This document shows, in pieces, positions 40,654 to 44,140 of a stretch of 64,000 nt of DNA. The stretch lies in NCBI RefSeq assembly GCF_024228315.1, contig NZ_CP100454.1:372001-436000 (forward strand). Reading direction: 5' to 3'. Every line of letters begins with the position of its first letter. The stretch's first letter is position 1. This DNA comes from Halomarina pelagica. GTDB taxonomy: Archaea; Halobacteriota; Halobacteria; Halobacteriales; Haloarculaceae. The notes under the pieces were generated by a model. It searched no databases and was not told the origin of the DNA. It was given only the letters and a program-made list of their open reading frames with translations. A program made the position numbers and the translations under genes.

Positions 40654-41589
40654 TCACCTATCGACTTCTACGACGGTGCCCGTCTCGTCGAGGACGACGC
40701 GGAGTTCGTCTCCCCTGTGCGGCACGGTGATTCGAAGGCGCGTCGGATCCGTCGCCAGGAGTTCCTCTCGCCACTCGAAACTCCGGCAGATCGCCTCCCA
40801 CGATACCGATGCGTGTTCGATGCCGCGCTCGTAGTAGAACGAAACGACGGCGGGATGGCGGTGAACCGGTGCCCAACTGGGACTCCGCCAGGCGAACTTG
40901 CAGGACTCGCAGACGAACGTGAGTATCCCCAGAAAGTAGAACCCACACGCATCGCAGAGGTCGTACCCGACTTCGTGATCTTCACACGCCGCGAGCGACG
41001 CGTCCACGGTGCCACCGCACGCCGGACAGACGCCGTCGCTCATCGTCTCGAACCGGCGGATCGAATACGCGATGGTGGCGTCGAAGATCTCGTCGGATTC
41101 GCGGTTCCGGAGTCCCTCGGGCGGCAGGCCGAACCCGAAGATCCGCCCGTCTCTCTGCGGCCAGTATCCCTCGCACTCGGTACACCGCGCCCAGACGGTC
41201 CCGTCCTCGTAGGTGATCTCGACCGGGCTATCACAGCGCCCGCAGGTCGCATCGACGACGGCGGGGTCCAGAATCGGATTCTCGGTAGCCGTCCCCGCGA
41301 TGACGGCCCGTACGATCGCGAACCCGGGGGTAGCGAGTTCGTAGCCGCCGTCGGTCCGGCGAACGAAGTGGTCGATCAACCTCCCCAGGTGGTAATTGAA
41401 GTTCCCGGTGTCGTCGATCCCGACGCGGTCGTAGAGTTCCGAAAACGGGACAGCGTTGTCCGCCGCGTACGGATCGTAGGCCTCCCACAGCGCACGCAGG
41501 ATGCCCATGCGCGTCGCGTTGCCCAGGAGCGTGAACGCGCCGTCGGGAGACAACGCGGACGTCCCGTCGTCGTTCGGCTGCGTCGTCAT
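40654..41589 (-). CDS. ArsR-like HTH protein with multiple zinc ribbons
   Basis: A 311-residue protein. Residues about 20-95 are a winged helix (FTLLGNATRMGILRALWEA, FNYHLGRLIDHFVRRTDGG). The rest holds four or five Cys pairs: CGRC, CTEC, CPACGG, CDAC and CESC, forming several zinc ribbons. This layout recurs in haloarchaeal regulators. The start at 41589 (MTTQPNDDG) is preferred over one seven codons upstream. It diverges from the FilR1-like gene at 41791. Target genes are unknown; the neighbouring flavoenzymes are candidates. Confidence 0.82.
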   Translation of the reverse strand: MTTQPNDDGTSALSPDGAFTLLGNATRMGILRALWEAYDPYAADNAVPFSELYDRVGIDDTGNFNYHLGRLIDHFVRRTDGGYELATPGFAIVRAVIAGTATENPILDPAVVDATCGRCDSPVEITYEDGTVWARCTECEGYWPQRDGRIFGFGLPPEGLRNRESDEIFDATIAYSIRRFETMSDGVCPACGGTVDASLAACEDHEVGYDLCDACGFYFLGILTFVCESCKFAWRSPSWAPVHRHPAVVSFYYERGIEHASVSWEAICRSFEWREELLATDPTRLRITVPHRGDELRVVLDETGTVVEVDR

Positions 41590-41762
41590 GCGTACACGTA
41601 CCACTGACACCTACGTAAACCCCGTCTCGGACGATCCGCCCTCCGCACACGGGGTATCGAAGTACACTGTTGTCGGACGGCAGCCCGAGGAACGTCGACG
41701 ACGCCGGCACCGCAACTGACGATTGCCGTCGAACCGCCAAACGTTCACACCGCACCGTACAC

Positions 41763-41769: not shown

Positions 41770-41790
41770 CGTGGCATGCGTACCCACACC

Positions 41791-42615
41791 ATGAGTTCGG
41801 CTATCGAGGACATCGAGTTCCTCGCGCGTTCGGCCCACCGGGTCGGTGTGCTCGACTCGCTCGCGGAGCGTCCGCGCGACCGGAACGATTTACGAGCGGC
41901 GACGGGGGCTTCTTCGCCGACCATGGGAAGGATCCTCGACGATTTCGAGACACGGCGGTGGATCGTCCGGGAGGGGCGGGCATACCGACTGACGCCCCTC
42001 GGTCGGTTCGTCGTGGAGCGGTTCGCGGACCTCCGGGAAGCGATGGAGATCGAGCGAAAGCTACGCGATGTCTGGCGGTGGCTCCCGCGAGAGATGGAGG
42101 GTTTCTCGGTCGACCTGTTCGCCGACGCGGTGGTGTCGTATCCCGGTCCCGGCTATCCCTACCAGCCCGTCGAACGCGTCACGCAGTTGATCGAGGGGAC
42201 CAGCGCGATGCGCGGGTTCGGCACGACGGTGTTCAAGTCGATCAACAACGAGACCGTCTGCCGGGCCGTCGTGGACGGCATGGACTACGAGTACATCTAC
42301 GCCCCGGAGACCCTCGAAGCGACCGTCGCGTGGGATCCAGAGGCAGTCGCGAGGGCGGCCGCGTGCGAGAACTGCACCATCCTCGTGCACGACGACCTCC
42401 CCGACGAGCATCGGTGCGGTCTCGGCATCTTCGACGACCGTGTCGGCATCTGCTGTCACGACGCAGAGACGGGGATGCTCGAGGCCGTGATCGACACCGA
42501 CTCGCCGGAGGCTCGCGAGTGGGCCGTCTCGGTCTTCGAACGGCACCGGGTCGACGCGCGGTCGGTCGACGGCGGTGAGAAGGCAGCGCTCTTTCCGTCG
42601 GAACTCATCACGTGA
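41791..42615 (+). CDS. HTH transcriptional regulator, FilR1-like
   Basis: A 274-residue protein with the same architecture as the one at 24789: winged helix (IEFLARSAHRVGVLDSLAER, GASSPTMGRILDDFETRRW, GRAYRLTPLGRF) and a C-terminal sensor-like domain (NNETVCRAVVDGMDYEYIYA, CENCTILVHDDLPDEHRCG). It is 107 bp upstream of a flavin oxidase gene, with a triple half-site palindrome between them, so it probably controls that gene. Confidence 0.87.
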   Translation: MSSAIEDIEFLARSAHRVGVLDSLAERPRDRNDLRAATGASSPTMGRILDDFETRRWIVREGRAYRLTPLGRFVVERFADLREAMEIERKLRDVWRWLPREMEGFSVDLFADAVVSYPGPGYPYQPVERVTQLIEGTSAMRGFGTTVFKSINNETVCRAVVDGMDYEYIYAPETLEATVAWDPEAVARAAACENCTILVHDDLPDEHRCGLGIFDDRVGICCHDAETGMLEAVIDTDSPEAREWAVSVFERHRVDARSVDGGEKAALFPSELIT

Positions 42616-42648: not shown

Positions 42649-42671
42649 TTTCACGTCGTGAAATATTTCAC
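42649..42671 (+). promoter_or_regulatory. Operator-like triple half-site TTTCAC/GTGAAA/TTTCAC
   Basis: TTTCAC-gtc-GTGAAA-ta-TTTCAC: three half-sites alternating in orientation, making two overlapping palindromes (42649-42663 and 42658-42671). The AT-rich centre (aaatattt) could double as the TATA box of the oxidase gene starting at 42722. A repressor bound here would block the promoter. The adjacent FilR1-like protein is the obvious candidate. Confidence 0.6.
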
Positions 42672-42721
42672 TAGAAATCTACAATTCAGTCCCGGGTGTC
42701 AAAGAGCGTGGGTACGAAGCC

Positions 42722-44140
42722 ATGACGACATCCCGAGTCCAACAACCACTTCCCGAAGAGGCGGTGACCGAACTCCGAGAGGAGATCCGCGGTGACGCGA
42801 TCCTTCCCGGGGAGGAACGTTACGACGAAGCCCGCGCGGTCTGGAACGCGATGATCGATCGATCGCCGGCCATCGTCGTCCGAGCACTGGGCGCGGCCGA
42901 CGTGATGACCGCCGTCGACTTCGCCCGGACTCACGGACTCGAAATCGCGATCAAGGGCGGCGGTCACAACGTCGCGGGGAACGCGGTCTGCGATCACGGC
43001 CTCGTGCTCGACCTCTCGCGCATGAAGTCGGTACACGTCGATCCCCACCGACGAACTGCCCGGGTCGAACCGGGGGCCGTACTCCACGATCTCGACCGGG
43101 AGGCGCAGGCCCACGGCCTCGTGACGCCTGCGGGGTTCGTCTCCACGACCGGCGTGGCCGGTTTGACCCTCGGGGGAGGTATCGGATACCTCTCGCGGAC
43201 GTTCGGCCTGACCGTCGACAACCTCCGATCGGCCGACCTCGTGACGGCCGACGGGGCGTTCGTCCGGGCGGGCGAGGACGAACACCCTGATCTGTTCTGG
43301 GCGCTGCGGGGCGGTGGCGGTAACTTCGGCGTCGTGACGTCGTTCGAGTTCGAACTGCACGATCTCGATCCGACGGTGTTGGCCGGGCCCGTGGTGTGGT
43401 CGTTCGAGGACGCGCCGGCCGTCCTGCGCGAGGTGTCCGCCGCCGTCCGCGACGTACCCGACGAAGTATCGTGTCTCCCGGTGATTCGGCATGCACCGCC
43501 GGCACCGTTCCTCCCGGAGGAGGTACACGGCGAGATGGTACTGGTGATCGCGATGATCTACGCGGGCGATCCCGCCGATGGGGAGAGCGCGCTGGCGGCC
43601 CTGCGCGACGTCGGCGAACCGATCGCCGACGCGGTCAAACCGATGCCGTACGTCGACTTCCAGTCGATGTTCGACGCGGCTTCCGGGCCGGGTGCGCGCA
43701 ACTACTGGAAGTCCCATTACCTCGCCGAACTCGACGGCGAGGGGATCGCCGTCCTCTGTGAACACGCGGCGCGGATGACCTCGTCCGAGTCAGCGATCGG
43801 GATGCTCTCGCTCGGTGGCGCGGTGGCGCGGGAACCCGACGAGTCGACCGCCTACCCGCACCGCGACGCGGCGTGGGTGCTGAATATCCAGTCGCGGTGG
43901 CGCGAGACTGAGAATGAGGAACGACACGTGGACTGGACCCGGGCGCTGTTCGACGCCATGGTCCCATTCTCGACCGGGGGCGTCTACGTCAACTTCATCA
44001 GCGGGGACGAGGGCGACGAACGCGTGCGAGCCGCCTACGGCGACCGAACCTACGATCGGCTGGCGGAGGTCAAGGCCCAGTGGGATCCCGAGAACGTCTT
44101 CCACCTGAACCAGAACGTCACGCCCGGAGCAGGAGGGTAG
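42722..44140 (+). CDS. FAD-binding oxidoreductase, berberine-bridge-enzyme type
   Basis: A 472-residue flavin oxidase. IAIKGGGHNVAGNAV carries His82, the probable 8-alpha-histidyl FAD attachment site. GFVSTTGVAGLTLGGGIGYL follows; the Cys of bicovalent members is absent, so mono-covalent FAD is expected. The C-terminal BBE segment has NFISGDEG, YGDRTYDRLAEVKAQWDPEN and FHLNQN. Such enzymes oxidise sugars, alkaloids or similar alcohols with oxygen. Probably controlled by the upstream HTH protein. Confidence 0.9.
   Translation: MTTSRVQQPLPEEAVTELREEIRGDAILPGEERYDEARAVWNAMIDRSPAIVVRALGAADVMTAVDFARTHGLEIAIKGGGHNVAGNAVCDHGLVLDLSRMKSVHVDPHRRTARVEPGAVLHDLDREAQAHGLVTPAGFVSTTGVAGLTLGGGIGYLSRTFGLTVDNLRSADLVTADGAFVRAGEDEHPDLFWALRGGGGNFGVVTSFEFELHDLDPTVLAGPVVWSFEDAPAVLREVSAAVRDVPDEVSCLPVIRHAPPAPFLPEEVHGEMVLVIAMIYAGDPADGESALAALRDVGEPIADAVKPMPYVDFQSMFDAASGPGARNYWKSHYLAELDGEGIAVLCEHAARMTSSESAIGMLSLGGAVAREPDESTAYPHRDAAWVLNIQSRWRETENEERHVDWTRALFDAMVPFSTGGVYVNFISGDEGDERVRAAYGDRTYDRLAEVKAQWDPENVFHLNQNVTPGAGG

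Follow-up and report, generated by a model that had tools for sequence, protein, structure and literature searches.

A three-half-site element beside a FilR1-like regulator gene in Halomarina pelagica as the probable operator of a haloarchaeal regulator clade

Introduction

In the haloarchaeon Halomarina pelagica, a 23-base element of three alternating half-sites lies between the gene for a FilR1-like regulator and the gene for a flavin-dependent oxidase, and this arrangement raises the question of which protein reads the element and what it does to the gene behind it. We addressed this question in a stretch of 64,000 nucleotides (NCBI RefSeq assembly GCF_024228315.1, contig NZ_CP100454.1, positions 372,001 to 436,000 of the forward strand), hereafter the window, and at homologous loci in other genomes. 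An earlier, sequence-only reading of the window had proposed that the element is an operator for local regulation of the oxidase gene, that its AT-rich core can be the TATA box, and that a genome scan for TTTCAC-N3-GTGAAA and a comparison of promoters in relatives would bear on the proposal. Our analysis points, with a probability that we put at roughly two in three, to a dedicated one-component regulator that would dock just upstream of the transcription factor B recognition element (BRE) and activate one neighbouring gene, regulator and operator forming a portable pair. The features that the argument needs at the outset, numbered in the window, are:

42649 to 42663, no strand assigned: palindrome 1, TTTCAC-GTC-GTGAAA, 15 bases with a 3-base centre, made of half-sites 1 and 2; proposed main dimer site
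42658 to 42671, no strand assigned: palindrome 2, GTGAAAT-ATTTCAC, perfect, 14 bases, with half-site 2 common to palindrome 1
42666 to 42671, plus strand: half-site 3, TTTCAC, adjoining the core promoter; in relatives 2 or 3 bases from half-site 2
41776 to 42615, plus strand: regulator gene, 279 residues, winged helix-turn-helix (HVO_A0261_N) and FilR1_middle domains (from open reading frame, Pfam and fold model); the start may be the ATG at 41791
42722 to 44140, plus strand: target gene, flavin adenine dinucleotide (FAD)-dependent, berberine-bridge-like oxidase, 472 residues, FAD_binding_4 and BBE domains (from open reading frame and Pfam)

Results and Discussion

The element in the genome and across the class

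Positions 42649-42671 of the window read TTTCACGTCGTGAAATATTTCAC (TTTCAC-GTC-GTGAAA-TA-TTTCAC, 23 bases), with half-sites at 42649-42654, 42658-42663 (inverted) and 42666-42671, and the two overlapping palindromes described earlier can thus be read directly. The stop codon of the regulator gene is separated from the element by 33 bases, and the oxidase start lies 50 bases past the element. Pfam domains confirmed both neighbours that the sequence-only reading had named, a FilR1-like regulator upstream and a flavin oxidase downstream, the regulator scoring 101.4 and 84.1 bits for PF25213 and PF08350 against curated cut-offs of 35 and 27.

The genome scan favoured an operator: the exact pattern TTTCAC-N3-GTGAAA occurs once in the window, where a second place has 2 mismatches, and this is its single copy in the whole 4.6 Mb genome. 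The triple pattern with at most 3 mismatches is found at three places, versus none for a reversed control, namely the window site, a site beside a second regulator of the same family, and a locus (L255) that, judged from its sequence without an open reading frame check, we take for a chance match. The possibility that the operator serves a regulon larger than the local gene was considered for this genome and rejected, as two of the three places adjoin a family regulator and the third is taken as chance. The second regulator-operator pair (G000:C3:11751-12672; L179, L256) is on a 104-kb contig and has the variant TTTCAG/CTGCAC before a flavin monooxygenase-like gene.

When the exact triple pattern and the regulator were searched in 391 genomes of the class, 26 exact sites were found in 24 genomes and the reversed control gave none; viral contigs held no exact site. 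A homologous regulator is present within the 3 kb fetched at 25 of the 26 sites; that of L141 is partial and lies at the margin of the locus. The exception, L140 (1501-1523, minus strand), has an exact operator and core promoter before a 248-residue membrane-protein-like frame, with no family regulator within about 3.8 kb, and is a possible distant target.

The operator at homologous regulator loci

The regulator set comprised the matches listed down to E 2.5e-64, less one (G308:C16) that was left out, plus loci already collected; 20 loci had also entered through motif search, and their regulators are among the matches listed. Of 128 distinct regulator genes, 120 were full length (at least 240 aligned residues and at least 40% identity), and eight, mostly fragments, were dropped. 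Loci of 2.5-5 kb were scored at 18 fixed positions, and half-sites 2 and 3 could be 2 or 3 bases apart. Among the matches listed, a site of at least 14/18 is present at 105 of the 120 full-length regulator loci and one of at least 15 at 99, counts obtained with a consensus that was derived from the window and so favours near relatives, and from many loci of related species. By comparison, 14 was reached by 23 of 1200 shuffled loci and by one of 99 control loci, and 15 by one of the 1200. Sites of at least 14 accompany 96 of 101 regulators with at least 50% identity and 9 of 19 below 50%.

The comparison of relatives, like the genome scan, came out in favour of an operator, with the FilR1-like neighbour as clearly the best candidate binder; on these sequence comparisons, the upstream regulator is very probably the protein that binds the 23-base element. 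Chance similarity, for which the shortness of the motif could be held to speak, is practically negligible in view of the single exact copy in the genome, the empty reversed control in 391 genomes and the sites at 105 of 120 regulator loci.

With regard to placement, 99 of the 105 sites share the strand of the regulator, 83 lying 3' of it and 16 lying 5' of it and ahead of a cupin-type gene; five are on the opposite strand and one overlaps the end of the regulator. This bears on the possibility that the element is an RNA feature, i.e., a terminator hairpin of the regulator or a hairpin in the leader of the oxidase mRNA, as its place 33 bases behind the regulator stop and the 6-bp hairpin it could fold might suggest. 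The element, however, precedes the target, and does not lie behind the regulator, in the 16 cupin-type loci and L146, and in the window it is upstream of the TATA-like element and so probably outside the leader of the target; an RNA hairpin was therefore rejected as very improbable. Autoregulation found little counterpart in the data, in that only 3 of the 128 rows (L146, L147, L252) reach 14/18 within 400 bases 5' of the regulator.

The pair is also found on plasmids, for which five annotated loci were scored. Sites precede a methyltransferase gene in Halorussus aquaticus (18/18, with the 3-base spacing) and Haloterrigena turkmenica (15/18; not independent of loci L150 and L247), an oxidoreductase gene in Haladaptatus pallidirubidus (17/18) and a cupin gene in Halalkalicoccus (13/18); on a Haladaptatus salinisoli plasmid with a 50%-identical regulator homolog, no site was found even at 13/18.

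The operator follows the regulator and not the oxidase

Oxidase relatives were searched in 146 genomes of the family and in GTDB genome contigs. In Halomicroarcula rubra, the element recurs at the equivalent position in an orthologous gene pair (L003/L033; regulator 69% and oxidase 74% identical), so that the motif does stand before an orthologous pair, its absence there being what would have counted against the earlier proposal. A further 28 oxidase loci came from the family (L004-L031). In 23 of them the stretch that was fetched shows no regulator match, and all 23 score below 14/18, including L004 and L005, whose oxidases are 63% and 59% identical; in the other five the regulators are distant only (25-34% identity), and a score of 14 is reached by a single one, L006. 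Nine loci had been left out of the controls beforehand for a regulator match (L006, L016, L020, L029, L030, L033, L042, L072, L107); scored apart, L033 gave 18, L006 14 and the other seven 11 to 13. The motif as a mark of oxidase promoters was rejected, since among 80 oxidase loci, mostly bacterial, only L033 carries it (L047 reaches 14).

Several oxidase loci deserve mention in their own right. L032 comes from a record that bears the name of a bacterium, Halomonas halodenitrificans. Its oxidase shares 67% identity with that of the window, ranking second after Halomicroarcula rubra among these 80 loci, and its best operator score is 12; the locus represents either a transfer or a mislabelled record. 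The haloarchaeal loci L029 and L030 have a distant, divergent FilR1-like regulator and share, before the oxidase start, a different alternation of half-sites (TTTCAC/GAAAC/GTTCAC/GAAC-like), which may be the operator belonging to that regulator branch. The oxidase paralog loci L232, L233, L239 and L240 have longer arrays of about five alternating half-site-like units that end just before a BRE-like element.

Target genes and the regulator tree

Frames of at least 95 residues behind sites of at least 14 were clustered by BLAST, and ten representatives were scanned with Pfam. The targets comprise methyltransferases (29, of at least two kinds), cupin-like proteins (16), flavin monooxygenase-like proteins (15), BBE oxidases (13), alpha/beta hydrolases (12), SCO4226-like proteins (3), nitroreductases (2) and a GNAT acetyltransferase (1, beside a fragmentary regulator); the remaining frames form small clusters or stand alone, and many are probably spurious. 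The cupin-like representative fell just below the Pfam cut-off (25.8 vs 27.2 bits), and PLSDB annotates one such gene as a cupin protein. In a midpoint-rooted tree of the 120 regulators, built by a quick method and with target labels assigned by hand, a branch supported at 99 by the Shimodaira-Hasegawa-like approximate likelihood ratio test splits 104 rows from 16, with sites of at least 14 in 100 of the 104 vs 5 of the 16, and the target label requires at least 10 changes. Tree and target counts together indicate that the gene under control was exchanged while the operator remained with its regulator; judged by sequence, they are a portable pair that stands beside eight kinds of gene in haloarchaea. 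The proposal of local regulation of the oxidase thus held in so far as the element is operator-like and linked to the regulator, but it was too narrow, as the motif belongs to a regulator clade with seven other target families.

Recognition helix and palindrome 1

The regulator residues of interest for recognition of the half-sites are encoded here:

41911 to 41922, plus strand: codes for residues 46-49 (S-S-P-T), where the recognition helix begins (from the alignment; helix 47-59 in the model)

In twelve regulators S46 is replaced by H and P48 by S, and these are exactly the 12 whose operators have G at the third base in both arms of palindrome 1; H is absent from the other 108 rows. Their arms are mostly TTGCAC, with the variants GTGCAC, TTGCGC and TTGCAT, while half-site 3 stays TTTCAC (TTTCAT in one). 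This correlation fits a direct reading of palindrome 1 by the regulator and, since both arms change together with the recognition-helix residues, points to palindrome 1 as the principal site of the dimer.

The same observation speaks against a role of the element as operator of another, non-adjacent regulator, with the FilR1-like neighbour as a passenger. Such an arrangement would account for L140, the exact site for which no family regulator was found within about 3.8 kb, but not for the family regulator near the other 25 exact sites, for sites of at least 14 before eight gene families, or for TTGCAC-like operators accompanying altered helix residues, and we regard it as very improbable.

Fold of the regulator

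An AlphaFold2 model from five sequences (mean predicted local distance difference test score 82, predicted template modelling score 0.67) has a winged helix (residues about 6-97) followed by a second, phospholipase-D-like domain (about 113-266), which is the fold order of the TrmB family (TrmBL2 5box/5bpd; TrmB 3qph, 2f5t). TrmBL2 chains rank first in Foldseek (E 1.9e-11); over whole TrmBL2 chains the root-mean-square deviation is 16-20, so the two domains are placed differently. With VIA-align, the second domain (113-266) matched FAM83B (Z 13.8 and 13.6), the phospholipase D family structure 1byr (13.2) and the TrmB sugar-binding domain 2f5t (12.3); the winged helix gave Z 11-13 to MarR-, ArsR- and RosR-type proteins and, taken alone, matches these about equally well as the TrmB family. 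The catalytic HxKx4D motif was found in none of the 120 regulator sequences, and the model likeness makes the second domain probably non-catalytic and ligand-binding, as in TrmB. No solved structure related by sequence was found at E 0.1, and no Pfam TrmB DNA-binding or effector domain at E 0.001. A second predicted regulator (DUF7347 and DUF7351; 40654-41610, minus strand) is divergent from the FilR1-like regulator gene, with 165 bases between them.

Core promoter

Two further elements lie directly past the operator:

42672 to 42677, plus strand: BRE-like element TAGAAA, abutting the operator (from position and conservation in 94 sites; putative function)
42678 to 42683, plus strand: TATA-like element TCTACA (from position and conservation in relatives; putative function)

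The 23-base spacing of the window is shared by 94 of the 105 sites. In these 94, half-site 2 is best conserved (63 read TTTCAC on its strand), followed by half-site 3 (54) and half-site 1 (40). In most groups a BRE-like TAGRNA directly follows half-site 3, and a TATA-like element occupies positions 7-12 past the operator. Of the 105 sites, 100 have A at position 12 and 73 have TA at positions 9-10; TTTAWA stands at positions 7-12 in only 9 of the 94, and the monooxygenase group has CATCATCA there. For 60 of the 79 sites on the same strand, the longest frame begins 45-58 bases past the operator. Where half-sites 1 and 2 lie one base farther, the TATA-like element holds its distance to half-site 3 in L165, L222 and L225; L227 and L231 have no clear TATA-like element. 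The suggestion that the AT-rich core of the operator is itself the TATA box did not hold up: because this core is GTGAAATCCTGCAC in the monooxygenase group, and because a separate TATA-like element follows downstream, the core is probably not the TATA box. Many related promoters, though not that of the window, have a well-kept GCGTA about 25-29 bases past the operator, before the start codon.

Comparison with known systems

The regulator resembles FilR1 of Methanosaeta harundinacea in its PF08350 FilR1_middle domain and N-terminal winged helix-turn-helix. FilR1, unlike the window regulator, ends in a receiver domain and accepts its phosphoryl group from FilI, and no consensus for its operator is given in the part of the source drawn on (PMC3991700); no receiver (REC) domain was found in the window regulator by Pfam scan at E 0.001, which sets it apart from FilR1-type response regulators. 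The operator resembles the Thermococcales glycolytic motif (TGM) of TrmBL1 and Tgr, TATCAC-N5-GTGATA, in being an inverted repeat with similar half-sites (TCAC/GTGA), but it is not a TGM, its spacer being 3 instead of 5 (TTTCAC-N3-GTGAAA) and its half-sites three instead of two; its target, moreover, is local, unlike the global sugar regulon of TrmBL1 and Tgr (PMC4158304, PMC4706686).

Three other systems are comparable. TFB-RF1 of Pyrococcus furiosus, an activator, has a palindromic site just upstream of a weak BRE/TATA at conserved distance and a regulator beside a target; it differs in its site, TCTGAANTTCAGA, a single palindrome (PMC5937170). EarA of Methanococcus maripaludis has several six-base sites directly upstream of a weak BRE; it differs in having four sites and in serving the archaellum operon (PMC5512572). 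Both are compared here by site layout and not by protein kinship. CsmR is a haloarchaeal winged-helix regulator with a semi-palindromic site, TATCA-N4-TGATA, beside the TATA box; it differs in its size (13 kDa) and its many motility and shape targets, which are up in the deletion strain, and no third half-site is described in the part of the source drawn on (PMC13286277). For the clade treated here, no operator was found in the open-licence PMC literature, and a subscription paper could describe one.

Activation or repression

In the mechanism that we favour, a dimer of the regulator would bind palindrome 1 (TTTCAC-N3-GTGAAA), half-site 3 would be filled by further protomers or act as an overlapping second site beside the BRE, and the bound regulator would most likely recruit transcription factor B (TFB) and TATA-binding protein to a sub-optimal core promoter and thereby switch on the single neighbouring gene, here that of the FAD oxidase, in response to a small molecule; binding, the assignment of the dimer, activation and the ligand are the parts that we infer. 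The element lies directly upstream of the predicted BRE/TATA region, like those archaeal activator sites that are placed upstream of a BRE. In an E. coli reporter, several promoters gave higher expression with FilR1, which binds promoters (PMC3991700), TFB-RF1 activates from such a place (PMC5937170), and TrmBL1 activated two of three templates with a site upstream of the promoter, with no effect on the third (PMC4706686); for these reasons an activator appears, by analogy, more likely than a repressor.

The same regulator and operator could also work in the opposite sense: a complex over palindrome 2 or over all three half-sites would cover the BRE and shut out TFB until a small molecule releases it, like many one-gene detoxification switches. 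Half-site 3 abuts the BRE-like element directly, and the targets are mostly single modifying enzymes, which is a common layout of inducible repressors. In Haloferax volcanii the CsmR site is upstream of BRE/TATA, yet deletion of csmR raises the targets (PMC13286277), so position alone is no proof of activation. The increase of expression by FilR1 in the E. coli reporter (PMC3991700) and the poor TATA-like elements in several target groups speak against repression, which we consider rather unlikely, though it is the most serious of the alternatives.

Besides CsmR, several observations weigh against the activator that we prefer or against parts of that account. Fifteen of the 120 homologs have no match at 14/18, five of them with at least 50% identity; four of these five score 13 where relatives carry the site, yet 205 of 1200 shuffles also reach 13. 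All 12 regulators with altered helix residues form one clade (support 99), so that their correlation with the operator arms represents one event. The argument from a weak TATA element is itself limited, as 9 promoters have TTTATA and 32 of 105 sites are without TA at positions 9-10. Finally, half-site 3 crowds the BRE, which is compatible with repression too.

A more speculative combination of both modes, which we regard as doubtful, would make the three half-sites a positional switch, in which a dimer on palindrome 1 recruits TFB, a dimer on palindrome 2, 8-9 bases downstream at the edge of the BRE, blocks it, and the ligand chooses between them; the whole would be a portable cassette moved between unrelated genes, with a recognition code changeable by two residues (S46 and P48, replaced by H and S in the TTGCAC group).

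Conclusions

An operator is here assigned, from sequence alone, to a large haloarchaeal regulator clade, which provides testable targets for about a hundred regulators and possibly an expression switch for haloarchaeal genetics. The coupled change of two residues and one base offers a natural specificity experiment, and the pair may serve as a simple system in which to ask what makes an archaeal regulator seated beside the BRE activate or repress its target.
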